In this document: in pieces, positions 28,060-63,900 of the stretch
How positions within the stretch are numbered: position 1 is the stretch's first letter
Layout of the letters: each line of letters starts with the position of its first letter
Assembly (NCBI RefSeq): GCF_014639535.1
Contig: NZ_BMGA01000003.1
Coordinates: forward strand, 411,864 to 475,863
Direction: 5' to 3'
DNA length: 64,000 nt
Origin: Flavobacterium palustre
GTDB lineage: Bacteria > Bacteroidota > Bacteroidia > Flavobacteriales > Flavobacteriaceae
Made by a program: the position numbers and the translations under genes
Notes under the pieces: model-generated
Databases searched by the model: none
What the model was told of the DNA's origin: nothing
What the model saw: the letters and a program-made list of their open reading frames with translations, nothing else

Positions 28060-28974
28060 TTATAATAACAAACTCGTTTTTATTGCGGTTTCTAAATTTT
28101 CATATTGAAATTGAAAACCCAACTGTTTTAGCTTTTCATTCGAAACTCTTCTGCCTGTTAGAATTAATTTAGACATTTCACCGAGCGCTATTTTTATCAG
28201 GAACGAAGGAATATTAGGTAACCAAATACTATATCCATAGATTTTTGCCAATATTTTAGAAAATGACTCATTGGTTGTATTATCAGTAATGGCAGCATTG
28301 TAAGCTCCGGACATCATCGGATTTTTTATCGCTTCCAGATAAATTTGACATAAATCATCAACATAAATCCATGGCATATATTGTTTTCCGGAACCTAAAA
28401 CCGAACCTAATCTCAATTTAAAAACAGGAGCTATTTTTTTTAAAAAGCCATCTTCTTTTCCAATTACTAAACCAGTACGGATTTTAACCGTACGAATTCC
28501 CAGTTTTTCAAATTGACTGGCTGCTGCTTCCCATTTTTGACAGGTCAGTCCTAAAAAATCATTTGCAGGCTGCATGCCTTCATTGCAAATTGCCCGACCG
28601 TTCATGGCACCATAAATCCCTACAGCCGAAGCCGAAACAAACGCTTCTATACTCTTATTCCATTTTAATAATGAATCATAAATTAATTGTGCTGAGCGTT
28701 CTCTACTGGATAAAATTGCAGCTTTTCGGCCTTTTGCCCAGCGCTTTTCTCCAATATTAGCTCCAGCCAAATGAATCACAAAATCTGCCTTTCGAATGGC
28801 TTCTTCTTCAATAAACTGTTTTTCTACATCCCAGGTGTAATAAAAAACATTTGCCGTATTGGTTCTTTTGTTCCTGCTCAAAACTGAAACTGAAAAACCA
28901 TCAGCAACTAACAAATTAGTCAAATGCTTGCCCACAAATCCGGTTCCACCCGTTATCAAAACATTTTTTCTCAT
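28060..28974 (-). CDS. TIGR01777-family NAD(P)-dependent epimerase-like protein
   Basis: 304-residue extended short-chain dehydrogenase. NAD-binding motif VLITGGTGFVGKHLTNLL, then LAGANIGEKRW, SASAVGIYG, GKQYMPWIYVDD and a C-terminal DUF1731-like tail (SNEKLKQLGFQFQYENLE). Substrate unknown. The ATG at 28974 is preferred to the TTG three codons upstream. It is divergent from the photobiology operon, and a putative CarH-type operator lies between them, so it is probably part of the same light regulon. Confidence 0.87.
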   Translation of the reverse strand: MRKNVLITGGTGFVGKHLTNLLVADGFSVSVLSRNKRTNTANVFYYTWDVEKQFIEEEAIRKADFVIHLAGANIGEKRWAKGRKAAILSSRERSAQLIYDSLLKWNKSIEAFVSASAVGIYGAMNGRAICNEGMQPANDFLGLTCQKWEAAASQFEKLGIRTVKIRTGLVIGKEDGFLKKIAPVFKLRLGSVLGSGKQYMPWIYVDDLCQIYLEAIKNPMMSGAYNAAITDNTTNESFSKILAKIYGYSIWLPNIPSFLIKIALGEMSKLILTGRRVSNEKLKQLGFQFQYENLETAIKTSLLL

Positions 28975-28997
28975 TACAATCAATTTTTCTTAGTAAT

Positions 28998-29005
28998 CAA
29001 ATATA
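28998..29005 (-). promoter_or_regulatory. Candidate -7 element of the TIGR01777 gene
   Basis: CAAATATA reads TATATTTG on the minus strand, identical to the -7 elements of crtI and the merR gene. It lies 23 bases before the ATG at 28974. Confidence 0.55.
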
Positions 29006-29013
29006 CAAATATT

Positions 29014-29045
29014 TTGTTTAACATTAACACAAAATAGTTAAACAA
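29014..29045. promoter_or_regulatory. Putative CarH-type operator 1 (divergent promoters)
   Basis: Inverted arms TTGTTTAAC (29014-29022) and GTTAAACAA (29037-29045) with a 14-base spacer. The same arms and spacing occur before crtI and across the merR start. It lies between -7 elements pointing left (28998-29005) and right (TATCTTTA, 29051-29058), where a bound repressor could block both promoters. Confidence 0.7.
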
Positions 29046-29079
29046 TTTACTATCTTTATACAAAATAAAAAGAAAGAAC

Positions 29080-29742
29080 ATGGCAACTAAGAAAATTAAA
29101 ATAACAAAAGAAACTATTGTATCCATGTACATGGAATTTACTTTAGAAAACAATGAAAAACCTAAATCAGTCTATCAATTCGCTAAACTAAATGGTTTTA
29201 CAGAAACGGAATTCTATAACTTTTTTGGAAATCTGGAAAGTATCGAAAAAGAAATCTACACGCTGTTTTTAGAAAAAACCATTGAGTTAATAAACAAAGA
29301 CAGCCATTACGAATCGTATGACATGAAAAGTAAATTATTGAGTTTCTACTTTACTTTTTTTGAATTATTGGCTGCCAATCGCAGTTATGTGACTTTAAGC
29401 TTAAAAGAAGATAAAAATCAATTAAAAAACCTGATGCAGCTTTCCAGTTTAAGACAGCATTTTAAAAAATTCATTGAAGAAATCACAACTGATGAAGTCC
29501 GAATTCAACAAGAAAAAATCCAGAAATATCAAGACAAAGCAATTCAGGAAACTGCGTGGGTTCAATTCTTGTTTACACTGAAATTCTGGCTGGAAGACGG
29601 CTCACCAAATTTTGAAAAGACAGATATTTTTATCGAAAAATCAGTCAAACTAAGTTTTGAATTAATGAACACGGCTCCTATCAACAGTTTAATCGATTTT
29701 GGGAAATTTATTTTTAAAGAAAAAATGCAAACTAACTCATGA
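29080..29742 (+). CDS. TetR-like regulator
   Basis: 220 residues. The N-terminal 50 residues resemble a TetR helix-turn-helix (KPKSVYQFAKLNGFTETEFYNFFGNLESIEKEI), although the recognition region is less canonical. The rest is all-helical, like a TetR ligand domain. It overlaps the AarF-like gene by 4 bases (ATGA), so translation is coupled. As first gene of the operon it may sense a ligand related to the kinase or its membrane substrates, which is inference. Confidence 0.75.
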   Translation: MATKKIKITKETIVSMYMEFTLENNEKPKSVYQFAKLNGFTETEFYNFFGNLESIEKEIYTLFLEKTIELINKDSHYESYDMKSKLLSFYFTFFELLAANRSYVTLSLKEDKNQLKNLMQLSSLRQHFKKFIEEITTDEVRIQQEKIQKYQDKAIQETAWVQFLFTLKFWLEDGSPNFEKTDIFIEKSVKLSFELMNTAPINSLIDFGKFIFKEKMQTNS

Positions 29743-31040
29743 AAACAATCGATTATATTCCAACATCCAAAATTGAACGAGCCACAAAACTGGTGCAAAC
29801 CGGAGCCAAAGTGGGTGTAAACTACCTGAAATATTATGGCGAAAAAATAGTGAATTCCGACTTAAGTCGTGATAAACTCAATGAAAACAACGCCGAAGAT
29901 ATTTATGACGGACTAAAAAGTTTGAAAGGAAGTGCTCTAAAAGTGGCGCAAATGCTAAGTATGGATAAGAATTTCTTACCACAGGCTTATGTGGAGAAAT
30001 TTTCATTGTCTCAATTTTCAGTTCCTCCGCTTTCGGCACCATTAGTATTAAAGACTTTCAAAAATAATTTTGGAAAAACGCCTTATGAAATATTTGACGA
30101 ATTCAACCCAAATTCGGTGAATGCGGCTAGCATTGGTCAGGTGCATTTGGCGGTAAAAAACGGCAAAAAACTGGCGGTAAAAATTCAATATCCGGGTGTT
30201 TCTAACAGCATTTCATCTGACTTGGCTTTGGTGAAACCCATTGCCATTCGAATGTTTAATCTTCAAGGCAAAGATTCTGATAAATATTTCAAAGAAGTGG
30301 AAGACAAACTGATTGAGGAAACCAATTATTTATTGGAACTCAAACAAAGCCAAGAAGTGGTTAATGCGTGTAAAAAAATTGACAATCTGGTTTTTCCGGA
30401 ATATTATCCTGAATATTCTTCTGAGAAAATCATTACGATGGATTGGATGACAGGAGTTCATTTATCCGAATTTAAAAATTCAGATAATGAAATAGCTAAT
30501 AAAATTGGTCAGGCGTTATGGGATTTTTATATGTACCAAATTCATATTTTGAAAAAAGTCCATGCCGATCCGCATCCCGGGAATTTCTTAATCGATGACA
30601 AAAACCAATTGGTTGCATTGGATTTTGGTTGTATGAAACAAATCCCGAATGATTTTTACATTCCTTATTTTGAATTAATCAACAAAGAAGTCATTGACAA
30701 CAAGAAACTTTTTAGAGAAAAATTATTCGAATTGGAAATCCTCAGAACTGACGACAGCAAAGAAGAAATTGCCTATTTCACACAAATGTTCTATGATTTA
30801 TTATCGCTGTTTACCAAACCGTTTCAAACGGATACTTTCGATTTCTCTGATGAAGTATTCTTTGAGAATATTGCCCAGTTAGGCGAACGCTTTTCAAAAG
30901 ATACGAATCTGAAAAAAATGAATGGAAACCGTGGTTCCAAACATTTTATTTACATGAACCGAACCTTTTTTGGATTGTACAATTTGATGTTTGACTTGAA
31001 AGCCAAAATTGTCGTGAACGCTTTTGAAAAATACAACTAG
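29739..31040 (+). CDS. AarF/ABC1/UbiB-family atypical kinase
   Basis: 433 residues. Family motifs are visible: the KxGQ-like segment LKGSALKVAQMLSMD (here KVAQ), NAASIGQVHLA, the nucleotide lysine in KLAVKIQYPGV, the catalytic loop HADPHPGNFLID and the metal Asp in LVALDFGCMKQ. Such proteins act as ATPases supporting isoprenoid-quinone handling in membranes; the precise role here is unknown. It overlaps both neighbours (ATGA upstream, TAGTG downstream), placing it in the light-regulated operon. Confidence 0.9.
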   Translation: MKTIDYIPTSKIERATKLVQTGAKVGVNYLKYYGEKIVNSDLSRDKLNENNAEDIYDGLKSLKGSALKVAQMLSMDKNFLPQAYVEKFSLSQFSVPPLSAPLVLKTFKNNFGKTPYEIFDEFNPNSVNAASIGQVHLAVKNGKKLAVKIQYPGVSNSISSDLALVKPIAIRMFNLQGKDSDKYFKEVEDKLIEETNYLLELKQSQEVVNACKKIDNLVFPEYYPEYSSEKIITMDWMTGVHLSEFKNSDNEIANKIGQALWDFYMYQIHILKKVHADPHPGNFLIDDKNQLVALDFGCMKQIPNDFYIPYFELINKEVIDNKKLFREKLFELEILRTDDSKEEIAYFTQMFYDLLSLFTKPFQTDTFDFSDEVFFENIAQLGERFSKDTNLKKMNGNRGSKHFIYMNRTFFGLYNLMFDLKAKIVVNAFEKYN

Positions 31041-31168
31041 TGAAAAAAGAAAACCTTCCGTCTAAAATTTGTCCGGTATGTCAGCGGGCTTTTAATTGGC
31101 GTAAAAGATGGGAAAAAGTTTGGGATGAAGTCAAATACTGTAGCGAAAAATGCAAAAGAAACAAATAA
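31040..31168 (+). CDS. DUF2256 zinc-finger-like small protein
   Basis: 42 residues from a GTG start that overlaps the preceding TAG by one base. It has CPVC at residues 11-14 and CSEKC at 34-38, a four-cysteine pattern suited to zinc, around NWRKRWEKVWDEVKY, the hallmark of DUF2256. This family is commonly found beside cryptochrome/photolyase genes. Its 3' end overlaps the next gene by 19 bases, implying coupled translation and a close functional link. The biochemical role is unknown. Confidence 0.85.
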   Translation: MKKENLPSKICPVCQRAFNWRKRWEKVWDEVKYCSEKCKRNK

Positions 31169-32628
31169 ATGTGGTTTGGTTTAAAAGAGACCTTCGATTA
31201 CAGGATAACGAAGCGATTTTTAATGCTGTAAAAACAGCTACACCTACTTTGTTGCTTTACGTATTTGAAAAATCTTTAGAAAATGATCCGCATTACAGCC
31301 AGAGACACTGGAATTTTATCAAACAATCACTGGTTGATATCAACAAACAACTAAAAAAATTAAATACTCATGTTTTAGCGGTATCTTCAGAAGTTGCTCA
31401 TGTATTCAACACACTTCAGGAAATTTATAAAATTGATAGTGTTTTTTCACATCAGGAAACTGGTTTAAAAATTACTTATGAAAGAGACAAAACCTTTAAA
31501 CGCTTTTGTAAAAACAACCAAATCAATTGGGTAGAAAATATCAATAACGGCATTTTCAGAGGATTAAAAAACAGAACGGATTGGATTTCTAAATGGGAAA
31601 AATACATGAACGAACCCCAATTTATTTTTGATGCTAAAGCCGAAAATTTTCTTCCTTCAGAAGCAATTGTCGAACTCGAAAAAATAGTAGAAAAAACCGC
31701 TTTAGAAACTATTCCCGATGCTGTTTTTCAAAAAGGAGGCAGCACGATGGGTCATAAATATTTGGAAAACTTTCTTGACGAACGCTATCACAATTACAGT
31801 TCGCATATTTCAAGTCCTGTATTAGCCCGAAGAAGTTGCAGCAGATTATCGCCTTATATCGCCTGGGGAAATCTGTCTTCAAGACAGGTTTTACAAAAAG
31901 CGGCTACATTTAGACTCACTTGCAGCCATAAAAAACAAATCGATTCTTTTGTATCCCGACTCACATGGCAGGCTCATTTCATACAAAAATTTGAAATGGA
32001 AGAAATCATGGAATTTGAAAGCATCAATAAAGGTTTTCATTCGTTAAAAAAGAAAATCAACCCGACTTATATTGAAGCGTGGAAAAAGGGACAAACAGGA
32101 TTTCCATTAATCGACGCCTGCATGCGTTGCCTGAATGAAACCGGTTATCTGAACTTTAGAATGCGCGCCATGTTAGTGTCGTTTTTTACACACAATTTAT
32201 GGCAGCCCTGGCAGGAAGCTACACAACATTTATCACAAATGTTTTTGGATTTTGAACCCGGAATTCATTTTCCGCAATTGCAAATGCAGGCCGGCGAAAC
32301 CGAAATCAATATGCTACGCATTTACAACCCGATAAAAAACAGCCATGAGCACGATCCTAATGGTGAATTTATTAAAAAATGGGTTCCTGAATTACGTCAT
32401 CTGCCCATAGCATTTGTACACGAACCCTATAAAATGACGTATTTAGACCAAAAATTTAACGATTTTGAAATAGGAATTCATTATCCAAAACCCATTGTCA
32501 ATTTAGAACGAACAAGAAAATTTGCCAGTGATTTTTTGTGGAAAATGAAAAAAAATCCACTGGTAAAAGAAGAAAGTTTCCGCATCCTGAAATTACACAC
32601 CATGGCCGGTATTGGCGACAGCGAATAA
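31150..32628 (+). CDS. Cryptochrome/photolyase-family protein, divergent
   Basis: 492-residue flavoprotein with an N-terminal photolyase Rossmann domain (VVWFKRDLRLQDNEAI) and a C-terminal FAD domain (RLSPYIAWGNLSSRQV, FPLIDACMRCLNETGYLNFR, MRAMLVSFFTHNLWQPWQEA). Where classical photolyases carry NxGWQWAAGTG with two Trp of the electron-transfer chain, this protein reads GIHFPQLQMQAGETEIN, so that Trp pair is missing. It may be a photoreceptor or a repair enzyme with another electron path. The start ATG lies inside the DUF2256 gene. Confidence 0.85.
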   Translation: MQKKQINVVWFKRDLRLQDNEAIFNAVKTATPTLLLYVFEKSLENDPHYSQRHWNFIKQSLVDINKQLKKLNTHVLAVSSEVAHVFNTLQEIYKIDSVFSHQETGLKITYERDKTFKRFCKNNQINWVENINNGIFRGLKNRTDWISKWEKYMNEPQFIFDAKAENFLPSEAIVELEKIVEKTALETIPDAVFQKGGSTMGHKYLENFLDERYHNYSSHISSPVLARRSCSRLSPYIAWGNLSSRQVLQKAATFRLTCSHKKQIDSFVSRLTWQAHFIQKFEMEEIMEFESINKGFHSLKKKINPTYIEAWKKGQTGFPLIDACMRCLNETGYLNFRMRAMLVSFFTHNLWQPWQEATQHLSQMFLDFEPGIHFPQLQMQAGETEINMLRIYNPIKNSHEHDPNGEFIKKWVPELRHLPIAFVHEPYKMTYLDQKFNDFEIGIHYPKPIVNLERTRKFASDFLWKMKKNPLVKEESFRILKLHTMAGIGDSE

Positions 32629-32631
32629 AAA

Positions 32632-32680
32632 TTCAATGTCAATATCAATTTCAATGTCAAAAAAACATCAATTTCAATTT
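32632..32680. repeat. TCAATnTCAAT short-period repeat
   Basis: TTCAATGTCAATATCAATTT is followed by CAATGTCAA and CATCAATTTCAA, an irregular array with a period of about 6 bases in the 66-base gap before the DUF2805 gene. Confidence 0.6.
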
Positions 32681-32694
32681 TTAAATAAAATAAC

Positions 32695-32979
32695 GTGACT
32701 ATAAAAAAAGAACTCACCGATTTAGACAAAGACCGCATCATCGAAATGGCGTGGGAAGACCGAACAACTTTTGAGGCAATTCAGTTGCAATTTGGATTAA
32801 AAGAACAAGAAGTCATCGACCTCATGCGTGCTGAGATGAAACCTTCTAGCTTTAGAATGTGGCGCGAAAGAGTACAAGGCAGAAAAACCAAACACGCCAA
32901 ATTGAGAATTTTTAATGAAGGACGTTTTAAATGCAGCAGACAAAGACAAATTAACAACAACAAAATCTCGAAAAGATAA
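32695..32979 (+). CDS. DUF2805 (TIGR03643) small protein
   Basis: 94 residues from a GTG start. LTDLDKDRIIEMAWEDRTTF and VIDLMRAEMKPSSFRMWRER are the family hallmarks, with a very basic C-terminal tail. The first part looks like a helix-turn-helix (FEAIQLQFGLKEQEVIDLM) but DNA binding is unproven. DUF2805 genes typically occur with cryptochrome and DUF2256 genes, as here. Unknown function. Confidence 0.85.
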   Translation: MTIKKELTDLDKDRIIEMAWEDRTTFEAIQLQFGLKEQEVIDLMRAEMKPSSFRMWRERVQGRKTKHAKLRIFNEGRFKCSRQRQINNNKISKR

Positions 32980-33003
32980 TTCAAACAAAAATAGTTTTCA
33001 AAC

Positions 33004-33687
33004 ATGAAAAACATCGTCATCATCGGAGGCAGTAAAGGAATTGGAAATGCTATTTTATTGCAACAATTAGAAACTAATTGTGTTTATAACATCAGTAGAA
33101 ATCCTCCTGAAATTTCTCATCCTAATCTTAAACATTACAGCATAGATGTTTTACAAGATACATTGCCGGAAATTGAATCAATAGATACTTTAATTTATTG
33201 CCCTGGCTCGATTAATTTAAAACCTATCACAAATTTAAGCATTGACGATTTTAGAAATGATTTTGAAATCAATGTGATTGGAGCGGTTAAATGTATTCAG
33301 CAATACCTGCCTCAGTTGAAAAAAGGAATTCATCCATCGGTACTTTTATTTAGTACGGTGGCGGCCAAATTAGGGATGCCTTTTCATGCCAGCATTGCAG
33401 TATCAAAATCAGGAATTGAAGGACTGGTAAAATCCCTGGGGGCCGAATTAGCTTCGTCAGTCAGAATTAACGCTATTGCGCCTACAATTACCGAAACATC
33501 GCTTTCGGCAAACATTTTACGAAATGATCGAATGAAAGAAAACATGGTAGAACGCCACCCCATGAAAGGCTATTTAAAAGCGAATGAAGTAGCAGAAATG
33601 GCTGATTTTTTAATTTCAGAAAAGGCAAAATCCATCTCAGGACAAATTTTTGAAATGGATTACGGAATAGTAACTTTTAAAATTTAA
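33004..33687 (+). CDS. Short-chain dehydrogenase/reductase
   Basis: 227 residues, classical SDR. The cofactor motif is IIGGSKGIGNAIL, followed by YCPGSINL, the catalytic Ser in LLFSTVAAKLG and a C-terminal EMDYG tail. The catalytic Tyr-x3-Lys appears as HASIAVSKSG, so the usual Tyr is replaced by isoleucine or alanine at that position, as seen in some SDRs near photolyases; activity is therefore uncertain. It lies 24 bases after the DUF2805 gene and 12 bases before folE. Confidence 0.82.
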   Translation: MKNIVIIGGSKGIGNAILLQQLETNCVYNISRNPPEISHPNLKHYSIDVLQDTLPEIESIDTLIYCPGSINLKPITNLSIDDFRNDFEINVIGAVKCIQQYLPQLKKGIHPSVLLFSTVAAKLGMPFHASIAVSKSGIEGLVKSLGAELASSVRINAIAPTITETSLSANILRNDRMKENMVERHPMKGYLKANEVAEMADFLISEKAKSISGQIFEMDYGIVTFKI

Positions 33688-33699
33688 ATACTAAACAAC

Positions 33700-34311
33700 A
33701 TGATAAAAGAAATGAAAAGTTACGAGAAAATCGAACAATACGATACTGAAATAACAGAATCATTAGCCGACAATTATAGAACCATCATCGATAATTTAGG
33801 TGAAGATGTAACCAGAGAAGGTCTTGAAAAAACACCGGAGCGCGTAGCCAAAGCCATGCAATATTTAACGCACGGTTACGGATTAGATCCATTGGAAATA
33901 CTAAAATCGGCTTTATTTACCGAAGATCACCAACAGATGATTGTGGTAAAAGACATCGAGGTTTATTCGATGTGTGAACACCACATGTTACCCTTTTTTG
34001 GAAAAGCTCATGTGGCTTATATCCCTAATGGAAAAATTGTAGGTTTAAGCAAAATCCCCCGAATAGTTGACGCTTATGCACGAAGAATGCAAGTACAGGA
34101 ACGCTTGACCGATCAAATTAAAAACTGTATTCAGGAAGCCCTGAATCCGCTTGGAGTGGCTGTTGTAATTGAAGCGCAACACATGTGCATGCAAATGCGA
34201 GGAATTCAAAAACAAAATTCTGTTACAACGACTTCTTCCTTTACGGGAGCGTTTGAAAAAGACAAAACCAGAAAAGAATTTATCAGTTTAGTTGCTAATA
34301 AATTAAGCTAA
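33700..34311 (+). CDS. folE: GTP cyclohydrolase I
   Basis: 203-residue enzyme making dihydroneopterin triphosphate from GTP. The Zn ligands are in [15 protein letters not shown] and MCMQMRG, and the active-site motif is [29 protein letters not shown] closes the domain. In a photolyase operon it plausibly raises supply of a folate or pterin antenna chromophore. It may be a second folE beside a housekeeping one elsewhere, which cannot be checked here. Confidence 0.95.
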
Positions 34312-34327
34312 TTTTAAATTAAAAACC

Positions 34328-35746
34328 ATGAAAATTCTCTTAACAGGTGCTACAGGTTATATCGGCAAGCGACTTTTACCTATTTTGGTGGAGAAAGGTC
34401 ATGATGTGGTATGCTGTGTGAGAGATAAAAACAGGTTTTACTGTCCGGATGAATTACAACACAAAGTAGAAATAATCGAAGTCGATTTTCTAAAAAAAGA
34501 AAGTTTATTACAAATTCCGGACAACATTGATGCAGCCTATTATCTAATACATTCTATGTCGAGTTCTTCGGATAATTATGATGAATTGGAACAAATTTCG
34601 GCTCATCATTTTGTAGAAAGAATCAATCAAACCAATGCCAAACAAGTGATTTACCTCACCGGAATTGTAAACGACAACAGTCTTTCTAAACATCTGTCTT
34701 CCCGAAAAAATGTAGAAACTATTTTAGGCACAGGAACTTTTGCTTTAACAGCCTTAAGAGCCGGAATTATTGTAGGTTCCGGCAGTGCCTCTTTTGAAAT
34801 CATCCGGGATTTAGTTATCAAACTTCCTGTTATGATTACACCCAAATGGCTCAATACCAAATGCCAGCCTATTGCCATAACAGATGTCTTGGAATTCCTA
34901 ATCAAATCTCTTTTAAATCCGCTTACTTATAATCAGAGTTTTGATATTGGCGGACCGGACATTTTAACATATAAAGAAATGTTACTGGGTTTTGCCAAAG
35001 CCAAAAACCTAAAAAGATGGATTTTTACAATTCCGGTGATGACTCCTAAATTATCATCCTATTGGTTGTATTTTGTGACCTCAACTTCCTATAAACTCGC
35101 TACTGCATTAGTGAGCAGTATGAAAGTGGAAGTAATTTGCAAAGATTCCGGAATCAATGAATTACTAAATATTCATCCCATGTCTTATGAAGAAGCTTTG
35201 TCTCGAGCATTGATAAAAGTCAATGAAGACAAGGTGGCATCGAGCTGGAAAGATTCCTTAGTTAGCGGACGTTTTAAAAATAATATTTCGAAATTTATGA
35301 AAGTCCCTAAAAAGGATTGTTTCATCGACAGACGAAAAATGGAAATAATAAACCGTGATTATACCATTGATCGCATTTGGTCCATTGGAGGAGAAACGGG
35401 TTGGTACTATGGCGATTGGCTTTGGAATATCCGGGGCTTTATCGATAAATTATTTGGTGGCGTAGGATTAAGAAGAGGCCGAACTAACAAACACAGTATT
35501 CACGCTGGAGATGTATTGGATTTTTGGCGGGTTTTGTACGCCAATAAAGAAGAAGGTAAATTAATTTTATTTGCCGAAATGAAACTCCCGGGAGAAGCCT
35601 GGCTCGAATTCAAAATCATTGGAAATACATTGTATCAATCTGCGACATTCAGACCAAGAGGAATTTGGGGAAAATTATACTGGTACTCTGTTTTACCGTT
35701 TCATGGGTTTATTTTTAATGGAATGTTACGAAGATTGATAAAATAA
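34328..35746 (+). CDS. NAD(P)-binding protein with C-terminal DUF2867 domain
   Basis: 472 residues. The N-terminal half is an atypical SDR (ILLTGATGYIGKRLLPILVE, LIHSMSSSSDNYDELE, LRAGIIVGSGSASFEIIRDL). The C-terminal third matches DUF2867 (WSIGGETGWYYGDWLWNIRG, LRRGRTNKHSIHAGDVLDFW, RPRGIWGKLYWYSVLPFHGF). Function unknown; proteins of this architecture recur in cryptochrome gene clusters. It is the last gene of the operon and is followed by a repeat-filled gap. Confidence 0.83.
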   Translation: MKILLTGATGYIGKRLLPILVEKGHDVVCCVRDKNRFYCPDELQHKVEIIEVDFLKKESLLQIPDNIDAAYYLIHSMSSSSDNYDELEQISAHHFVERINQTNAKQVIYLTGIVNDNSLSKHLSSRKNVETILGTGTFALTALRAGIIVGSGSASFEIIRDLVIKLPVMITPKWLNTKCQPIAITDVLEFLIKSLLNPLTYNQSFDIGGPDILTYKEMLLGFAKAKNLKRWIFTIPVMTPKLSSYWLYFVTSTSYKLATALVSSMKVEVICKDSGINELLNIHPMSYEEALSRALIKVNEDKVASSWKDSLVSGRFKNNISKFMKVPKKDCFIDRRKMEIINRDYTIDRIWSIGGETGWYYGDWLWNIRGFIDKLFGGVGLRRGRTNKHSIHAGDVLDFWRVLYANKEEGKLILFAEMKLPGEAWLEFKIIGNTLYQSATFRPRGIWGKLYWYSVLPFHGFIFNGMLRRLIK

Positions 35747-35754
35747 CCCCATTT

Positions 35755-36005: not shown

Positions 36006-36110
36006 CGAAAGCTAAGGACAATTCAAACTCATAAAAAACAATCATTTCATTTTTAACAATATAAGTCAAAATCTTAATAAACTTAATTTCTTAATGGTTT
36101 AAAAAAATAT

Positions 36111-37406
36111 TTATTTCAAAATTCCGGCTTTATAGGTTGCAATCGCTCTGTCTCTTGCCATAGCGTGATCGACCATGGGCTGTCCGTAACCCAAATCAAA
36201 TTCAGGAATCCATTTGCGAATGTAAATTCCTTTTTCGTCAAATTTTTTCAACTGAATATCCGGATTAAAAACCCTGAAATAGGGTGCGGCATCACAGCCC
36301 GTTCCTGCTGCCCATTGCCAGTTACCCACATTGGCAGATAAATCATAATCCAGTAATTTTTCGGCAAAATAAGCTTCTCCCCATTGCCATTGAATCAGTA
36401 AATGTTTGCACAAAAAACTAGCCACGACCATTCGTACCCGATTGTGCATATATCCGGTTTCGTTCAGCTGACGCATACCCGCATCGACCATCGGATAACC
36501 GGTGTTTCCGGTACACCAGCGTTTAAAATCTTCTTCGTTATTGCGCCACTGAATGCCATCATAATCCGATTTGAAATTTTGGGTCATCACTTTAGGGAAA
36601 CTAAATAAAATTTGCATAAAGAATTCTCTCCAAATCAGTTCGCTCAAGAAAACTGCGTTTTTACGGGCTGCCCAATTCACTAATTTTCTAATGCTTACAG
36701 TTCCAAAACGCAAATGAGGAGACAAATACGAAGTGCTGTCTACAGCCGGAAAATCACGGGTTTCGTGATAATGAGCAATTTGTGTCAGGTTATGAGGTTT
36801 GACTTTTATAGCACTTTCTTCAAATCCAATTTGTTTCAAAGTCGGGAAAGAAAAATCGCTTTTATAAAAATTCGAAAACAATTCTGAAGTCTCATATTCC
36901 CTAACAGGCTTAAGTTGATTGAATTTTTCGAGCCATTTATTTTTATACGGTGTGTAAACCGTATAAGGCAAACCATCGGCTTTTGTGATTTCTTTTTCTT
37001 CAAAAATCACCTGGTCTTTAAAGGAATACGTAATGCTTTCATTGCTTTCTAATAATTGACAAATGGCTTCGTCGCGCTGAATTGCAAAAGGTTCGTAATC
37101 TTTATTGAAAAAAACTTCTTTGACATCAAATTCCTGAATTAAGTTTTTCCAAACTTCTGGCGTTTTTCCTTTTTTAACTAATATTGAACTGCCTGTTTCG
37201 TTTAATTGAATATTTATTTTCGCTAAAGATTCGTGAATAAAAGCAACTCTTGCATCGTCTTTAGGCAAACTATCCAGAATGGCTTCATCAAAAATAAACA
37301 ATGGAATTACAGGGTTAGATGATTTTAAAGCATAAAACAATCCAATATTGTCTTCAAGTCTTAAATCACGTCGAAACCAAAAAAAAGAAACTGCATTTTT
37401 AGCCAT
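36111..37406 (-). CDS. phrB: Deoxyribodipyrimidine (CPD) photolyase, class I
   Basis: 431-residue light-driven DNA repair enzyme that splits cyclobutane pyrimidine dimers with FAD. The N terminus SFFWFRRDLRLEDNIGLFYA and C-terminal FAD motifs are intact: FLSELIWREFFMQI, GYPMVDAGMRQLNETGYMHN, RMVVASFLCKHLLIQW and GNWQWAAGTGCDAAPYFR, with the Trp residues of the electron-transfer chain. Its start overlaps the stop of the SRPBCC gene by one base (TAATG). It is clearly distinct from the divergent homologue at 31150-32628. Confidence 0.94.
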   Translation of the reverse strand: MAKNAVSFFWFRRDLRLEDNIGLFYALKSSNPVIPLFIFDEAILDSLPKDDARVAFIHESLAKINIQLNETGSSILVKKGKTPEVWKNLIQEFDVKEVFFNKDYEPFAIQRDEAICQLLESNESITYSFKDQVIFEEKEITKADGLPYTVYTPYKNKWLEKFNQLKPVREYETSELFSNFYKSDFSFPTLKQIGFEESAIKVKPHNLTQIAHYHETRDFPAVDSTSYLSPHLRFGTVSIRKLVNWAARKNAVFLSELIWREFFMQILFSFPKVMTQNFKSDYDGIQWRNNEEDFKRWCTGNTGYPMVDAGMRQLNETGYMHNRVRMVVASFLCKHLLIQWQWGEAYFAEKLLDYDLSANVGNWQWAAGTGCDAAPYFRVFNPDIQLKKFDEKGIYIRKWIPEFDLGYGQPMVDHAMARDRAIATYKAGILK

Positions 37407-37867
37407 TACTTTGAATTAAAAATTTCATTTACTTTCTGTTCACGGTATTCAAATATCTCCTTGAGTTTGTTTTTAACCACCAAAGTATTCATGATTCGAC
37501 CAAGAAAACCAAATGGAATAGCATAATGAACTAAATCAGTCATTTTCACGCCGTTTTCTGTTGGCTCAAAAAAATGTTTGTGATGCCACAAAGCATAAGG
37601 TCCAAAACGTTGTTCGTCTATAAAATAACTGTGGTCTTTAACAATGGTAATTTCAGTAACCCAGGGTAATTTGATTCCCAAAAGTGGCGAAACTTTGTAC
37701 TGAATAATTTGACCGGCATACATGTTTTTCCCATCAAAATCAGTAATTTGAAATCCCATCGTTTTGGGAGTTATTTTTTGCAAATTACGCGGACTGGAAA
37801 AAAACGCCCAACATTCTTCAATCGAAGCATTGACATGTTGAACGGCTTGTTTGGAATATACTTTCAT
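37406..37867 (-). CDS. SRPBCC-family ligand-binding protein
   Basis: 153 residues with the START/Bet v1-like cavity fold: IEECWAFFSSPRNLQKITPK, GPYALWHHKHFFEP, MTDLVHYAIPFG. These proteins bind hydrophobic ligands; in carotenoid clusters they may bind pigments or intermediates, which is inference. The ATG at 37867 (MKVYSKQAVQHVNAS) is used because the longer frame starting at 37984 would add a non-conserved segment that reads through two hairpins. Coupled to the photolyase gene. Confidence 0.8.
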   Translation of the reverse strand: MKVYSKQAVQHVNASIEECWAFFSSPRNLQKITPKTMGFQITDFDGKNMYAGQIIQYKVSPLLGIKLPWVTEITIVKDHSYFIDEQRFGPYALWHHKHFFEPTENGVKMTDLVHYAIPFGFLGRIMNTLVVKNKLKEIFEYREQKVNEIFNSK

Positions 37868-37920
37868 AAGTTTGCTTTTTAGACAAAGTAGGGTTTGCGA
37901 TAGGGATAGCAGTGAAAATC

Positions 37921-37949
37921 CTTTATGTTTTTTCTTTAAAAACATAAAG
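37921..37949. repeat. Perfect 12-bp hairpin between SRPBCC gene and crtZ
   Basis: CTTTATGTTTTT (37921-37932) and AAAAACATAAAG (37938-37949) with a 5-base loop. Confidence 0.75.
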
Positions 37950-37967
37950 ATTGTAACGAATAGCCCG

Positions 37968-38006
37968 ACCTCTTTAAAAAACATTTTTCTTGTTTTTTAA
38001 AGAGGT
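37968..38006. repeat. Perfect 15-bp hairpin downstream of crtZ
   Basis: ACCTCTTTAAAAAAC (37968-37982) and GTTTTTTAAAGAGGT (37992-38006) with a 9-base loop, 15 bases after the crtZ stop. No U-tract follows the stem on the minus strand, so it is not a standard terminator; it may act in mRNA processing or be a repeat remnant. Confidence 0.75.
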
Positions 38007-38021
38007 GACGCCCAAATTATT

Positions 38022-38462
38022 TTAGATTTTATAATATTTAAAAGGAACAAAAAGCATCCCAAAACATTCACCATCTTCTTTTCCCAGGTGTTTATGATGC
38101 ACTTTATGTGCTTTTCGTAAACCTATCAGGTATTTATTTTTGGTATTCTTGAACCACTTGAAACGCTGGTGTATCAAGACATCGTGAATCATGAAATAAC
38201 AAAATCCATAAATGGTGATTCCTAATCCGATGAAAAACAAATAATTGATTCCGCCCTCAACGCCATAATAAAAAAGTACGATGCTGGGAACTGCAAAAAT
38301 GACAAAAAAGATGTCGTTGCGTTCAAAAACGTGTTCGTATTTGGGTTGGTGATGGTCGGCATGGAAGTACCACATGAGTCCGTGCATCACGTATTTATGA
38401 GTGAGCCAGGTGACACCTTCCATCAAAAGAAATACACCCAATGTAATTAAAAATGAAATCAT
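38022..38462 (-). CDS. crtZ: Beta-carotene hydroxylase
   Basis: 146-residue membrane di-iron hydroxylase that adds hydroxyls to the beta-ionone rings, giving zeaxanthin. All histidine clusters are present: THKYVMHG, HADHHQP, MIHDVLIHQRF and RKAHKVHHKHLG. Membrane segments lie at about 3-20, 52-70 and 74-92. It is 24 bases downstream of crtB. No lycopene cyclase gene is adjacent or elsewhere in the window, although its substrate requires one. Confidence 0.92.
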   Translation of the reverse strand: MISFLITLGVFLLMEGVTWLTHKYVMHGLMWYFHADHHQPKYEHVFERNDIFFVIFAVPSIVLFYYGVEGGINYLFFIGLGITIYGFCYFMIHDVLIHQRFKWFKNTKNKYLIGLRKAHKVHHKHLGKEDGECFGMLFVPFKYYKI

Positions 38463-38486
38463 TTTTTAATGTTTAAAATCATTTGT

Positions 38487-39329
38487 TTATTCAACCAATC
38501 GTAATTTATAAGTAACGAAAGATTGTGCTAAAAGCGTGGCTTTGGTATAATTAGAAACTCTAATTCTGGCATTTCCAATTTCTTTGCAAGGTGTGTTTTC
38601 GAGTTTTTTTAATAACTTTTTATAATACACATAAGCGGTGTAAACGCCAAATTTAGCTTCGATTGGTAATTTTACAATTCCATCATAAGCCACTTTAAAA
38701 TCTTCTTTGATTTCGTTAATGATGGCTTTTTTAGCTTTTTCATCAAAAGAATTCAAATCGACTCCCGGGAAATAATTGCGGTTTAAAATCAAGTTATCGT
38801 CTTTTAAATCACGAAGGAAATTCACTTTCTGAAATGCAGACCCCAATCGCATGGCCTGATCTTTTAACTCCTCGTATTTGTGTTCTTTTCCGGATACAAA
38901 AACTTTCAAACACATCAAACCCACCACATCGGCAGAACCGTAAATGTATTCTTCGTATTCGGCTTTCGAATTGTAATCTAATTTGATTAAATCCATTTTC
39001 ATACTCTTCAAAAAAGCCTGAATCAAATCGTCTGAAATATTATACTGCTTAACTGTTTGCTGAAACGAATTCAAAATAGGATTCAGACTAATTCCGGAAT
39101 TATAAGCTTTATAATACTCGTTTTCGAAATCGTTGATTAAATTTTCTTTGTCAAAACCATGAAAAGAATCGACAATTTCGTCTGCAAAACGTACAAATCC
39201 GTAAATGCTGTAAATGGCATCCCTGATGCTTGGCGAAAGCATATATACCGCCAATGAAAACGAAGTACTGTAGTTTTTAGTCACTAACCTACTGCATTTA
39301 AAAGAAACATCGTCAAATAATTGCTTCAT
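38487..39329 (-). CDS. crtB: Phytoene synthase
   Basis: 280-residue prenyltransferase condensing two geranylgeranyl diphosphates to phytoene. The first aspartate motif is RFADEIVDSFH; the second lies in GSAFQKVNFLRDLKDD, and NYSTSFSLAVYML is the conserved N-terminal motif. It begins 2 bases after the crtI stop. Confidence 0.95.
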   Translation of the reverse strand: MKQLFDDVSFKCSRLVTKNYSTSFSLAVYMLSPSIRDAIYSIYGFVRFADEIVDSFHGFDKENLINDFENEYYKAYNSGISLNPILNSFQQTVKQYNISDDLIQAFLKSMKMDLIKLDYNSKAEYEEYIYGSADVVGLMCLKVFVSGKEHKYEELKDQAMRLGSAFQKVNFLRDLKDDNLILNRNYFPGVDLNSFDEKAKKAIINEIKEDFKVAYDGIVKLPIEAKFGVYTAYVYYKKLLKKLENTPCKEIGNARIRVSNYTKATLLAQSFVTYKLRLVE

Positions 39330-39331
39330 AG

Positions 39332-40804
39332 TTATTGTTTTAGAAATTGTTTATCTATCAAATCAGACACTAATTTTCCCGAAATTAATGCCGGTGGAAC
39401 CCCGGGTCCCGGAACGGTTAATTGACCCGTAAAATATAAATTACGAACTTTTTTACTTTTTAGTTTTGGCCTTAAAAAAGCCGTTTGCAATAAGGTATTT
39501 GCCATTCCGTAAGCGTTTCCTTTATAGGAATTGTACTGTTCGACAAAGTCGTTTTTGCAAAAGGATTCTTTAAATATAATATTTTCTTTGATGCTTTGCT
39601 GCGTTAACTTTTCAAAACGATCAATAATTTTATCAAAATATAGTTCTCTTAATTCTTCTGAATCATTGATTCCCGGCGCTAACGGCACTAAGAAAAAACC
39701 CGATTCCATTCCCTCCGGCGCAGCCGTTTTATCAGTCAACGACGGAAAATTGGCGTAAAACAAAGGTTCTGCAGGCCATTTTGGTTCGTCATAAATGTCT
39801 TTTGCGTGTTGGTTAAAATCGGTATCAAAAAACAAGGCATGATGCGAAATGTTTTCAATTTTTTTATTAAAACCTACATAAAACAACAAAGACGAAGGCG
39901 CAAAAACACGAGATTCCCAATATTGTTCGGAATACATTCTATGTTCTGCATCCAATAAAGTTTCGGTATGATGGTAATCAGCGCCACTTAAAACCAAATC
40001 CGATTCTATTCTCTCACCATTAATAACAATTGCTTTGGCAGTTTTATTTTCGACAATTATTTTTTCAATATTTGAATTTACAAAAAACTGCACTCCTAAT
40101 TCGCGAGCCAAACTTTCCATTGCACGAACCACATCAAACATTCCTGTTTTTGGATGCCAGGTTCCCAGTCCAAAGTCGGCATAATTCATAAAACTATAGA
40201 ACGAAGGCGTATCAGAAGGTTTGGCTCCAAGGAACAAAACCGGAAATTCTAAAATTTGAATTAATCGTTCATCTTTAAATTTCCTGCGCACATCTCGACT
40301 AATGTTGCTAAAAAACTGTCCAATTTTCTTAGTCGTTTCTACTGTCACTAATTCCAAAGGGGAAACTCCAGGGCGATACACTAAATCCTTAATCGCAATA
40401 TCGTAATTGCTTTGGGCTTCGGACATAAACTCCCTAAGAATTTTACCACTTCCTTTCTCAATAGTTTCAAATGTGGAAACAATTTCATCCAGATTATCAG
40501 CAATGGCAATGAATTCGTTCACTCCAAAATACACCCGATAAGCCGGAGACAATTTTATCAACTCATAATAATCGGAAGTTTTCTTTCCAAAATCGGCAAA
40601 AAAACGCTCAAACACATCAGGCATCCAATACCAGCTCGGTCCCATATCAAATGTAAAACCGTCTTTTTTTAACTGTCTCGCTCTGCCGCCTATTGTTTTA
40701 TTTTTTTCAAAAACTAAAACCTCGTGACCACTTTTTGCTAAATAGCAAGCCGCAGATAAGGCAGAGAATCCAGAACCTATTATTGTTATTTTTTTTCTTT
40801 TCAT
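39332..40804 (-). CDS. crtI: Phytoene desaturase
   Basis: 490-residue FAD enzyme converting phytoene to lycopene. N-terminal dinucleotide motif ITIIGSGFSALSAACYLAKS, then GGRARQLKKDGFTFDMGPSW, and the C-terminal bacterial desaturase motif NLYFTGQLTVPGPGVPPALI. It is the first gene of crtI-crtB-crtZ. The whole 34-base gap between the merR stop and this ATG is filled by a putative operator and two possible -7 elements. Confidence 0.96.
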   Translation of the reverse strand: MKRKKITIIGSGFSALSAACYLAKSGHEVLVFEKNKTIGGRARQLKKDGFTFDMGPSWYWMPDVFERFFADFGKKTSDYYELIKLSPAYRVYFGVNEFIAIADNLDEIVSTFETIEKGSGKILREFMSEAQSNYDIAIKDLVYRPGVSPLELVTVETTKKIGQFFSNISRDVRRKFKDERLIQILEFPVLFLGAKPSDTPSFYSFMNYADFGLGTWHPKTGMFDVVRAMESLARELGVQFFVNSNIEKIIVENKTAKAIVINGERIESDLVLSGADYHHTETLLDAEHRMYSEQYWESRVFAPSSLLFYVGFNKKIENISHHALFFDTDFNQHAKDIYDEPKWPAEPLFYANFPSLTDKTAAPEGMESGFFLVPLAPGINDSEELRELYFDKIIDRFEKLTQQSIKENIIFKESFCKNDFVEQYNSYKGNAYGMANTLLQTAFLRPKLKSKKVRNLYFTGQLTVPGPGVPPALISGKLVSDLIDKQFLKQ

Positions 40805-40836
40805 TTGTTTAACAAATATACAAAAATATTAAACAA
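40805..40836. promoter_or_regulatory. Putative CarH-type operator 2 (crtI)
   Basis: Arms TTGTTTAAC (40805-40813) and ATTAAACAA (40828-40836), 14-base spacer, the same geometry as operators 1 and 3. It abuts the crtI ATG and covers its candidate -7 elements, so binding should block crtIBZ transcription. Confidence 0.75.
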
Positions 40837-40844
40837 AATTACAA
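40813..40844 (-). promoter_or_regulatory. Candidate promoter of crtIBZ
   Basis: On the minus strand TTG (40842-40844), a 21-base spacer and TATATTTG (40813-40820). A start point about 7 bases downstream would fall almost on the ATG. An overlapping TATTTTTG (40821-40828) would give a short leader but lacks a spaced -33 TTG. Confidence 0.5.
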
Positions 40845-41735
40845 TTGCGATGTTAATTCTGCCATACTACTAAAAACAGAAATTTTCTTCAATACTATTT
40901 CTGAAGTAATACAGGAAGCCAATCGGCCTGTAAACCATAATTCGGTAGTTTCATCTGATAACACATCTACCATTTCCTGAACATACTCATTTACTTCGTC
41001 TCTGTCCGGCTTGACAGTCAAACAGGAAACATAGACAATGGAATCAAAATGTTTTTTCAGATCTTTTAAATTATGAATTGGCATGCTCTCGCCCAGATAA
41101 ATACTTCTGTAACCACTTAAAAGTATTTCGTAATGCAAATACATCAATCCCAATTCATGAATTTCATTCAACGGTAATGACAACACAAAAACCTTATCTT
41201 GTTTAACAGGATCTAAAAACTGTAGTTTTTCGGAATTTAAGATGATTTTCTGCCTTATTAAATAGCTAATAAAATGTTCGTGAGCCGGCGAAATTGTATC
41301 GGTTTGCCACAACAAACCAATCTCATCCAAAAGAGGAATAAATACCTGATGAAAAATTTCTTTAAACGACTTTTCTTCTGACAACCAATTGTAAGTATTT
41401 AAAAAAAGCTGTTGATCAAAATTCATCATTGCCATTTTAAAAGCGTTAATGGCGTGGTTTTTTGCGTTTTTAGAAGAAACAATTTGCTTAACCAATTCCT
41501 GAATTTCACGCTCTGAATAATTGGAAATTTTAGATATTTTATAACCATATTCATGTAAAAAAGTAATATTCAACAGTTTTTGCAAACTGACTAAATCATA
41601 CAATCTAATATTGGTATCGGTACGCATGGGCTCCAGAACCTGATACCTTTTTTCCCAAATACGAATAGTATGCGCCTTAATCCCCGAAAGATTTTCGAGG
41701 TCTTTTATACTAAAAACATTTTTTATATTGTTCAT
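40839..41735 (-). CDS. MerR-family B12-dependent photoreceptor regulator (CarH/LitR type)
   Basis: 298 residues. Residues 1-75 are a MerR winged helix (SIKDLENLSGIKAHTIRIWE). Residues 95-175 form the four-helix bundle with W143-x9-E153-H154 (WQTDTISPAHEH), the CarH Wx9EH motif. Residues 178-298 are a cobalamin-binding Rossmann domain with E191-x-H193-x-x-G196 (EIHELG) supplying the cobalt ligand. In CarH, adenosylcobalamin holds a DNA-bound tetramer in the dark and light breaks it. The residue after Trp143 is Gln, whereas Thermus CarH has His132. It sits beside carotenoid and photolyase genes. Confidence 0.9.
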   Translation of the reverse strand: MNNIKNVFSIKDLENLSGIKAHTIRIWEKRYQVLEPMRTDTNIRLYDLVSLQKLLNITFLHEYGYKISKISNYSEREIQELVKQIVSSKNAKNHAINAFKMAMMNFDQQLFLNTYNWLSEEKSFKEIFHQVFIPLLDEIGLLWQTDTISPAHEHFISYLIRQKIILNSEKLQFLDPVKQDKVFVLSLPLNEIHELGLMYLHYEILLSGYRSIYLGESMPIHNLKDLKKHFDSIVYVSCLTVKPDRDEVNEYVQEMVDVLSDETTELWFTGRLASCITSEIVLKKISVFSSMAELTSQL

Positions 41736-41759
41736 CTATTTACGAATATAGTTAAACAA
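41728..41759. promoter_or_regulatory. Putative CarH-type operator 3 (merR autoregulation)
   Basis: Arms TTGTTCATC (41728-41736, 7 of 9 matching) and GTTAAACAA (41751-41759) with the same 14-base spacer. The weaker arm includes the merR start codon (41733-41735) and the stronger arm overlaps its -7 element. Confidence 0.65.
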
Positions 41760-41789
41760 ATATACGCTTTTATTATAATAAAAAAACAA
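41757..41789 (-). promoter_or_regulatory. Promoter of the merR gene
   Basis: On the minus strand TTG (41787-41789), a 22-base spacer and TATATTTG (41757-41764). The -7 lies 21 bases before the ATG and overlaps operator 3. Confidence 0.65.
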
Positions 41790-41804
41790 TAAAGCAAAAA
41801 CATA

Positions 41805-42764
41805 TTATATTACATATTCTTCGTAATGATTCAGTTTATCCAAATCCAAAATGGTTTTAGTGTTATCAGCACTTCTTTGATACATCGGCATAAACTTTGC
41901 ACCGTAAATCACTTCATCAAAAGTATAAGAAGTTCGTGTTGCCACCGTATTACTGAACATATCATCAAATGTTTTAATATATACAAAAATTTCCCCTACT
42001 ATAGTTTCAAAATCTTCTTTTACAAACTGATACAAAGGGCTATTCTCTGTTATAGGATGCACCAATGTCCAACTCAAGGTGAGAGCATTTATTCTTTCGA
42101 GTTCTAAATCCAGAGAATAAAACTTATTTACTTTTACCCCATTTTCCTCAATACTCATCCCCAGAGTCATTTTGGCTTCTGCATCGGTGAAATTGGTATT
42201 TTTAAAAGGAGTCATTCTAATCATTAATCCCGTACCTTCTTCATAAGGCGAAATCAATGCGTTATGAGAAAATTTTAAAAAAGCAGTGGGTTTACTGAAT
42301 CGTCCAAAAAACAATCCCGTGGCAATTGCAAAACTCAACAATCCAATTAAAGCTTCGGCTGCTGCCAATAAACTGGTAAAAAAACCAACGGGACTTATAT
42401 GACCATACCCCACTGTAGTAAAGGTTTGGGCACTAAAAAAATAAGCCTGACCAAATTTTGCCCAATTACTATCCGTCACCGGAATACCATCGAGATGTTC
42501 TATTCCAATTCCGAAATACACCGTCGCAAAAAGCAAATTTATTCCCATATAGAAAATAAGAATGACCAACATGAATTTCCAGGCAGGCATATCAATCATG
42601 GTATGATACCAACTAATGCGATGCAAAAAGTGCATTCCTCTTTTTTCAATATTAGCCGTTCCGTCTTTATTTACAAAACGTCCGCCATAACTATTTGCGT
42701 TGGTTCCAAATCCCGTATTTCTATCCAATACGGCTTGTAAATTGATTTTATTTAAAAAAGCCAT
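41805..42764 (-). CDS. Inward-rectifier-type (KirBac) potassium channel
   Basis: 319-residue inner-membrane channel, probably tetrameric. Slide helix MIDMPAWKFM, outer helix about 63-82, pore with selectivity filter TVGYG at residues 117-121, inner helix about 130-152, then a cytoplasmic immunoglobulin-like domain (ALISPYEEGTGLMIRMTPFK, LELERINALTLSWTLVHPI) typical of Kir proteins. It lies upstream of merR on the same strand with 69 bases between, so read-through is possible. A link to light control is only positional. Confidence 0.92.
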   Translation of the reverse strand: MAFLNKINLQAVLDRNTGFGTNANSYGGRFVNKDGTANIEKRGMHFLHRISWYHTMIDMPAWKFMLVILIFYMGINLLFATVYFGIGIEHLDGIPVTDSNWAKFGQAYFFSAQTFTTVGYGHISPVGFFTSLLAAAEALIGLLSFAIATGLFFGRFSKPTAFLKFSHNALISPYEEGTGLMIRMTPFKNTNFTDAEAKMTLGMSIEENGVKVNKFYSLDLELERINALTLSWTLVHPITENSPLYQFVKEDFETIVGEIFVYIKTFDDMFSNTVATRTSYTFDEVIYGAKFMPMYQRSADNTKTILDLDKLNHYEEYVI

Positions 42765-63892: not shown

Positions 63893-63900
63893 ACTAAAGA

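Follow-up and report, generated by a model that had tools for sequence, protein, structure and literature searches.

This study concerns positions 28,060–42,764 of a 64,000-bp stretch of the Flavobacterium palustre genome (contig NZ_BMGA01000003.1, positions 411,864–475,863; "the window" below), where a merR gene adjoins carotenoid (crt), photolyase and further genes. Copies of one inverted repeat, TTGTTTAA-N16-TTAAACAA, were found at promoters of this locus, and the MerR protein, which looks like a divergent CarH-type regulator by its sequence and predicted fold, is likely to bind them. We consider it probable that this protein, carrying adenosylcobalamin (AdoCbl), represses the genes in the dark and is released by light. 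The sequence evidence gives good support for a single regulon that includes both arms of the locus, one on the plus strand and headed by tetR, the other running from crtI to the photolyase gene. The name "light response" would be borrowed for it from CarH systems.

The operator and the regulator that accompanies it

The motif TTTGTTTA was present in 40 of 46 merR upstream regions, counting only those whose alignment starts no more than 6 residues from the start, versus 28 of 446 background regions. The tetR promoters, linked and unlinked, refined this motif into TTGTTTAA-N16-TTAAACAA. With spacers of 14 to 18 bp permitted, 79 sites were obtained in 29 genomes, 63 of them with exactly 16 bp; the reversed N16 pattern gave 3. 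The 3.97-Mb host genome contains exactly two perfect copies, both within the locus (Operators 1 and 2, Table 1). Operator 1 lies 39 bp upstream of the TIGR01777 ATG. Operator 2 abuts the crtI start codon and holds TATATTTG, a TAnnTTTG −7 box, at 40,813–40,820 on the minus strand; a −7-like box inside an operator placed in this way fits a repressor. A copy with one mismatch precedes a fasciclin-domain gene elsewhere in the same genome by 29 bp, so that the network extends past the 14 kb that the initial annotation took as one response.

The third copy in the locus, Operator 3, is imperfect, and its right half ATGAACAA keeps TnnACA (as TGAACA). The merR start itself is thereby usable as the right half-site of merR's own operator, and this double use may explain the nearly invariant Asn2 of the protein. 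Scans of the merR start and the merR–crtI gap covered 80 of 581 confirmed loci. The gap held an operator with at most one mismatch in 46 of the 80 (none in 1600 shuffles or in 400 coding windows). From −120 to +40 of merR, a site with at most two mismatches was found in 52 (shuffles, 3 of 1600), and in 31 of these the right half was the start region ATGAACAA. A start-anchored TGTnnA-N18-TnnACA pair occurred at merR in 69 of the 80 loci, its right half being partly fixed by the coding sequence. Scanning at three mismatches returned 235 sites in the host genome versus 304 in the control, which is uninformative, and 5 sites in the window versus 4.4 expected, which is the level of chance. Consequently, only the perfect copies and, on the strength of its conservation, the merR-start copy are credible within the window.

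Both half-sites of the operator hold TAAACA, an instance of the TnnACA core of CarH operators (PMC8156234, PMC9304148). Characterised CarH operators are described there as tandem 11-bp direct repeats, nnnnTnnACAn. Repeats of this kind were sought within the operator and rejected, as no consensus for them emerged from 69 non-redundant sites; the direct-repeat place 11 bp off carried C in about 6% (mirrored position 14 of the symmetric profile of these sites).

The distribution of the operator was followed across the family in 239 genomes from 202 genera. There were 377 exact sites versus 11 for the reversed pattern, a 34-fold difference. An exact operator was carried by 166 of the 190 genomes whose merR ortholog was strong, by 4 of the 20 in which it was weak and by 1 of the 29 without one (Fisher's test, p = 6e-20, strong versus none; the genomes are related, and such p-values overstate independence). 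The border between strong and weak orthologs, E 1e-50, was set after the values had been seen, and the class without merR does not depend on it; 9 of its 29 genomes were inferred as gaps in the ortholog list. Per-genome counts total 171 of 239 genomes with a site, in agreement with the tally of the scan itself. The repeat might also be read as a mere promoter-like or low-complexity A+T signal, since TTTG belongs to the flavobacterial promoter consensus TTGNTANNTTTG (PMC3587595) and the window has an A+T content of about 65%. However, the strict 16-bp spacer, the reversed-pattern control and the single occurrence among merR-less genomes speak against a mere promoter box, and we find this explanation scarcely credible.

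Another candidate owner of the operator is the TetR_C_23 regulator of the locus, with MerR a bystander or a target. Clean operator copies do occur in tetR promoters, both linked and unlinked, and the tetR–aarF pair is very stable. However, among genomes with strong merR the operator was found in 33 of 36 without tetR and in 133 of 154 with it (p = 0.58), and among tetR-negative genomes in 33 of 36 with strong merR versus 1 of 34. Four genomes had tetR without merR; only one of them, G273, had a site, and the best matches in the four tetR promoters showed 6, 5, 5 and 2 mismatches, the last being that of G273. The operator therefore tracks merR where tetR is missing and does not respond to tetR, so that MerR is the likely binder and ownership by TetR is disfavoured to the point of being very improbable. 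The TetR protein would then act as a downstream regulator. Sequence comparison shows the composition, spacing and positions of the operator and its dependence on the presence of merR.

Genes behind the operator in relatives

The same-genus sample comprised 61 genomes, in which merR, tetR and cry were detected in 52, 47 and 30, respectively, at the E-value limits applied; an operator site was present in 48 of the 52 merR-positive genomes. The order crtZ–crtB–crtI–merR was conserved in 39 of 40 same-genus neighbourhoods, which is above chance, and the longer photolyase–SRPBCC–crtZ–crtB–crtI–merR was intact in 25. Many of these 25 also adjoin TIGR01777 / tetR–aarF–(DUF2256–cry)–DUF2805–SDR–(folE)–DUF2867, where SDR denotes a short-chain dehydrogenase. 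In 14 of the 40, crtZ–crtB–crtI–merR stands alone and tetR–aarF and the cry/photolyase genes are at other loci, while around a merR relative of 44% (L054) DUF2867, DUF2805 and DUF2256 lie close by with no crt genes. Since the genes are linked in some genomes and apart in others, nature itself provides a test of co-regulation, and many of the separated genes do have the operator in front of them.

The fetched same-genus loci yielded 89 distinct exact sites. All of them fall outside predicted genes, and 88 are followed within 400 bp by a gene facing outward, as judged with a simple open reading frame caller restricted to ATG starts. The genes faced are crtI (20 sites), tetR (12, of which 8 are shared with TIGR01777), DUF2805 (11), SDR (4), folE-like (3), merR (2), cry (2) and 31 others, among them fasciclin, flavin-reductase, rhodopsin and blh genes; one site has no such gene. 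A further 3 sites precede SRPBCC-led operons that also contain SDR, photolyase and cry genes, and cry is found downstream of many operator-bearing DUF2805 genes. For other genera, 40 sites were hand-picked from the 377, most sites plainly beside merR being left out. By the same caller none of the 40 is within a gene. Among the three nearest genes facing outward, the families recognised are fasciclin-like (14), folE or msrA–folE (3), SDR (2), SRPBCC–photolyase (2), DUF2867 (2), crtI (2), DUF4397 (2) and DUF2452 (1). The remaining 12 sites could not be assigned and include GHMP-kinase-domain (L319), fatty-acid-desaturase-family (L317) and Porph_ging-domain (L321) proteins. Relatives of the START/SRPBCC-like protein head operator-bearing operons with photolyase at other loci, and the operator directly precedes the DUF2867 gene in L306 and L328.

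The initial annotation had treated the whole segment as one light response, including the AarF-like kinase, the TIGR01777 protein and the DUF2867 protein. All three are tied to the regulon by the operator (AarF through tetR–aarF), given that the genome has only two exact copies and that relatives carry operators at the unlinked genes. The single-regulon claim likewise stands for the TIGR01777 gene, the plus-strand arm, merR and the crt–photolyase arm, which share the operator. It does not extend to the gene of the inward-rectifier potassium channel (Kir). A single local, light-controlled unit spanning 28,060–42,764 with Kir included would agree with the gene order, as Kir adjoins merR here and 13 of the 40 same-genus neighbourhoods contain a Kir match. 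However, no operator precedes the Kir gene of the window at up to three mismatches, and none was found at up to two mismatches in any of 12 Kir upstream regions from relatives (2 of 12 at three mismatches; background, 9 of 446 at three). With these operators missing and with targets far outside the cluster, Kir is not supported as a member, and a local unit of this extent seems quite improbable. In the upstream-region scan used for Kir and rhodopsin, the counts for crtI and merR come out too low, as the operator lies directly against or across the starts of these genes; the gap and merR-start scans given above replace them.

Operator control of rhodopsin looks common in the genomes compared. 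A bacterial rhodopsin (PF01036) was detected in 20 of the 61 same-genus genomes and not in the F. palustre genome. Within 160 bp upstream of the same-genus rhodopsins, an operator with at most one mismatch was present in 16 of 22 copies and with at most two in 19 of 22; G014 contributes three of these copies, and another, from G035, is a fragment at a contig end. Outside the genus, the scan covered 46 of the 49 genomes with a rhodopsin (all but G149, G200 and G232). The merR-positive rhodopsin promoters among them carried an exact operator in 13 of 42 cases, one with at most one mismatch in 21 and with at most two in 28. The merR-negative promoters gave 0 of 4 at up to two mismatches (G273 had 3), and shuffled rhodopsin upstream letters gave 0 of 920 at up to one mismatch and 4 of 920 at up to two. 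The gene divergent from rhodopsin across the operator belongs to the beta-carotene dioxygenase (blh) family in the four loci inspected, L190, L196, L221 and L225 (PF15461 tested on L225). Some rhodopsin/blh divergent promoters have two operators about 43 bp apart, exact in L196 (3464–3538) and with an imperfect second copy, seen by eye, in L227; perhaps there is one for each direction.

Further arrangements were observed among the relatives. In each of the 14 unlinked loci L101–L114, tetR and aarF remain paired as a unit of two genes. L119, L120, L127, L130 and L131 have a third photolyase-like gene (24–26% match), placed between DUF2256 and cry. In L115, from a genome in which merR was not detected (G022), a tetR–aarF–DUF2256–photolyase-like–DUF2805–SDR cluster has no operator at tetR, and one exact site is located elsewhere. 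Three merR loci with 62–66% identity come from records titled as metagenome-assembled genomes of Bifidobacterium, Rhizobium and Klebsiella (L356, L371, L374), probably mislabelled bins.

The MerR protein and the proposed mechanism

The protein has 298 residues and an N-terminal MerR_1 match (1e-12). Its closest solved relatives by sequence are CarH chains (PDB 5c8d, 2.2e-14; 3whp, 1.8e-14), and the NCBIfam CarH model matches at 7.7e-22, but with 77.9 bits versus a cut-off of 400. An AlphaFold2 model built from a 31-sequence alignment reached a pLDDT of 90.8, and in a Foldseek search of the PDB its top 12 hits were all full-length CarH chains, and isolated cobalamin domains came next (TMt roughly 0.7–0.83). 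In this model the four-helix bundle is followed by the strands and helices of residues 178–297, to which the cobalamin domains of CarH align; the overall CarH fold is reproduced, Rossmann domain included. The initial annotation had recognised Wx9EH and ExHxxG in this regulator and named CarH; both motifs were found, and CarH was the best match by sequence and by structure. Wx9EH corresponds to W143, E153 and H154 in the bundle, and ExHxxG to E191, H193 and G196, with the lower axial His; each is conserved in 51 of 51 aligned sequences, that of the window among them. The recognition helix reads RIWEKRY in 50 of 50 readable rows, near the RxWERRY of CarH (PMC9304148). The published B12 motif is E/DxHx2G-x41-SxT/V-x22-27-GG (PMC8156234, PMC9304148). 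In the window protein the first spacing is x40, and across the alignment the SxT/V–GG part of the signature is degenerate; the protein looks capable of acting like CarH while one strict part of the signature fails, and is for this reason called divergent. The organism likely uses AdoCbl, as suggested by a nearby fused gene with MM_CoA_mutase, MeaB and B12-binding domains.

In the proposed mechanism, AdoCbl would be held in the dark between the four-helix cap with Wx9EH and the Rossmann domain with the His of ExHxxG. Dark MerR would then occupy the inverted pairs of TnnACA half-sites that overlap promoters and repress transcription. Light would break the Co–C bond, MerR would leave the DNA and the regulon would be switched on. 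In F. palustre it would comprise TIGR01777; tetR–aarF–DUF2256–cry–DUF2805–SDR–folE–DUF2867; merR; crtI–crtB–crtZ–SRPBCC–photolyase; and the distant fasciclin gene, and in relatives also rhodopsin/blh, msrA–folE and others. We infer that the protein binds AdoCbl, is released by light and represses rather than activates, and that the genes of each operon are transcribed together, taking AdoCbl-dependent dark repression and its relief by light from CarH.

Several observations weigh against this mechanism. In place of SxT/V, 39 of the 51 aligned sequences have SxL or SxM; in GG, all 51 show T, I, M, L, F or V where the first G is expected, and 50 keep the second. The Pfam B12-binding Rossmann model (PF02310) had no match in the protein at 1e-3. 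The residue after the Trp of Wx9EH is a nearly invariant Gln, whereas a His at this position forms the bis-His light state of Thermus CarH (PMC8156234). The half-sites of the operator, 24 bp apart, are inverted with respect to each other, in contrast to the tandem repeats of CarH. No exact site was found in 24 of the 190 strong-ortholog genomes, while 3 of the 9 merR-negative same-genus genomes do carry one (G003, G020 and G022; the G020 site faces no outward gene). G043, in which merR was not detected (assembly 93% complete), has a one-mismatch site before its rhodopsin gene, which argues against a strict dependence of the operator on merR. As many as 14 of the 42 merR-positive rhodopsin promoters in other genera lack even a two-mismatch site, so rhodopsin control would be common rather than universal. 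The association of operator and merR is also correlational, and the crt genes and merR have probably been gained and lost together.

Part of this evidence would suit a regulator that binds the operator without using B12 as its light sensor, the signal coming from a light-oxygen-voltage (LOV)-type or other partner, or from redox state or singlet oxygen, with the cobalamin domain as a relic. The B12 motif is indeed partly degenerate, and Pseudomonas class II LitR proteins run a similar set of genes (phrB, cryB, folE), are LOV-linked and are thought to be B12-free (PMC9758184). However, both axial-ligand motifs persist throughout the alignment, and class II proteins consist of the helix bundle alone (PMC9758184), whereas a full, confidently modelled two-part domain is present here. 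We regard this alternative as unlikely and prefer the AdoCbl-dependent repressor.

For a broader proposal we see the case as evenly balanced: that a separate, Flavobacteriaceae-wide class of B12 photoreceptors, defined by inverted TnnACA half-sites with a 16-bp spacer, acts as a master light regulator directly gating rhodopsin phototrophy, retinal synthesis and pterin supply, along with pigments, photolyases and secreted fasciclins, so that light use would depend on the supply of B12. The system offers a testable answer to how flavobacteria may switch on light genes and, in its regulator, a relative of CarH that would read DNA sites of another geometry. Any genome can be scanned for the operator, which leads to concrete predictions on genes, promoters, the protein and vitamin B12 dependence. 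It also ties unexplained families (DUF2256, DUF2805, DUF2867, TIGR01777, fasciclin lipoproteins and the AarF-like kinase) to one regulator.

Related systems and layout of the locus

The protein shares with CarH / class I LitR of Thermus, Bacillus megaterium and Myxococcus the MerR winged helix followed by a cobalamin-type domain, Wx9EH, ExHxxG, the recognition helix, the TnnACA half-site and a carotenoid operon as target. It differs in the degenerate SxT/V and GG, the Gln that replaces His after Trp and an operator built as an inverted N16 pair, where theirs consists of tandem 11-bp direct repeats. Its regulon is also family-wide and takes in rhodopsin, folE, photolyases and fasciclins. Pseudomonas class II LitR (PplR/PmlR) likewise control a light regulon with photolyase, a cryptochrome-like protein, folE and an SDR; they differ in being a helix bundle alone, without a Rossmann B12 domain, and in acting with short LOV proteins, and no carotenoid or rhodopsin genes are named in the text consulted (PMC9758184). 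The window MerR, with its Rossmann domain, falls outside class II. Myxococcus CarA, a B12-independent paralogue, also combines MerR and a B12-type domain, and palindromic sites have been suggested for it; it lacks the Trp of Wx9EH (PMC9304148), whereas W143 is invariant here, which separates the two. The present system resembles CarH carotenoid control joined to class II LitR-like gene content under one CarH-type protein with a different operator geometry, with rhodopsin/blh and fasciclin genes in addition.

A 2011 study by Kimura, cited in PMC3587595, reportedly concerned light-induced transcription in a rhodopsin-bearing marine flavobacterium. In the literature searched, mostly listings, no regulator of a flavobacterial rhodopsin and no such operator were found; LitR surveys from the Takano group may list flavobacterial members. 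In Chryseobacterium lacus, also of the Flavobacteriales, crtI/crtB/crtZ are light-induced; the authors detected no genes of a car or lit operon there and put forward a new, unknown regulator (PMC7064467). MliR of Bizionia, a short MerR-like protein, was considered as the same regulator and rejected, as it is described without any effector domain (PMC9478572). In Mycobacterium kansasii two fasciclin-domain genes are light-induced, and the carotenoid regulator there is of the MarR type (PMC9861118).

Genes were named by searches against Pfam, NCBIfam, PHROGs and Rfam and by comparison with solved structures (Table 1). The nearest named relatives for the locus are Flavobacterium species. The plus-strand arm is an apparent eight-gene operon with overlaps or gaps below 70 bp. 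TIGR01777 runs leftward from it, merR followed by the crt–photolyase genes converges on it, and Kir lies upstream of merR.

Table 1. Features of the locus and its flanks, in window coordinates.
Feature	Position	Strand	Evidence and context
TIGR01777-family SDR-like oxidoreductase	28060–28974	−	NCBIfam 7.9e-85, 285 bits vs cut-off 207
Operator 1, exact TTGTTTAA-N16-TTAAACAA	29014–29045	.	TIGR01777/tetR divergent promoter
TetR_C_23 regulator	29080–29742	+	Pfam 3.2e-48; heads plus-strand putative operon
AarF/ABC1-type kinase-like protein	29739–31040	+	Pfam 4.9e-53
DUF2256 small Cys-rich protein	31040–31168	+	PF10013, 1.3e-21
Cryptochrome/photolyase-family protein (cry)	31150–32628	+	Profile matches; nearest solved chains RE11660p and cryptochromes
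DUF2805 / TIGR03643 protein	32695–32979	+	Pfam and NCBIfam
Short-chain dehydrogenase (SDR)	33004–33687	+	Pfam
folE, GTP cyclohydrolase I	33700–34311	+	Pfam 1.5e-76
SDR-like domain and DUF2867 protein	34328–35746	+	Pfam; final gene of plus-strand putative operon
DNA photolyase	36111–37406	−	Profile matches; solved bacterial photolyases closest
Small START/SRPBCC-like protein	37406–37867	−	Putative name; no library match
Flavo-1 RNA (RF01705)	37877–37974	+	Rfam 65.4 bits; crtZ–SRPBCC gap, opposite strand to carotenoid genes
crtZ-like carotene hydroxylase	38022–38462	−	Histidine boxes and gene order; no library match
crtB, phytoene synthase	38487–39329	−	Pfam 1.7e-42
crtI-like phytoene desaturase	39332–40804	−	FAD/amine-oxidase models and gene order; heads carotenoid–photolyase putative operon
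Operator 2, exact TTGTTTAA-N16-TTAAACAA	40805–40836	.	Between merR stop and crtI ATG
MerR/CarH-like regulator, cobalamin-binding-type C-terminal domain	40839–41735	−	MerR and B12-binding_2
Operator 3, imperfect (2 mismatches)	41728–41759	.	Covers merR start
Inward-rectifier K channel, KirBac type	41805–42764	−	KirBac3.1, 2e-42
Fused methylmalonyl-CoA-mutase-type gene	43088–46519		MM_CoA_mutase, MeaB, B12-binding

Profile searches placed the genes named in the initial annotation where it had put them; its list omitted the TetR_C_23 regulator. Its names for the crt and photolyase genes hold in part. Pfam confirmed crtB, the name crtI rests on general models and gene order, and the crtZ product, like the SRPBCC-like protein, had no match in Pfam, NCBIfam or PHROGs; both of these last names are presumed from visible histidine boxes and gene order. 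The gene annotated as a CPD photolyase is a photolyase by its closest solved relatives, "CPD" being a guess. RE11660p, among the nearest solved chains of the cry product, we take to be the Drosophila 6-4 photolyase. The Flavo-1 RNA occupies the same position in L055, L056 and L059 (3 of 7 relatives scanned). At the window edge, a 5S rRNA gene was detected on the minus strand (63,899–64,000).

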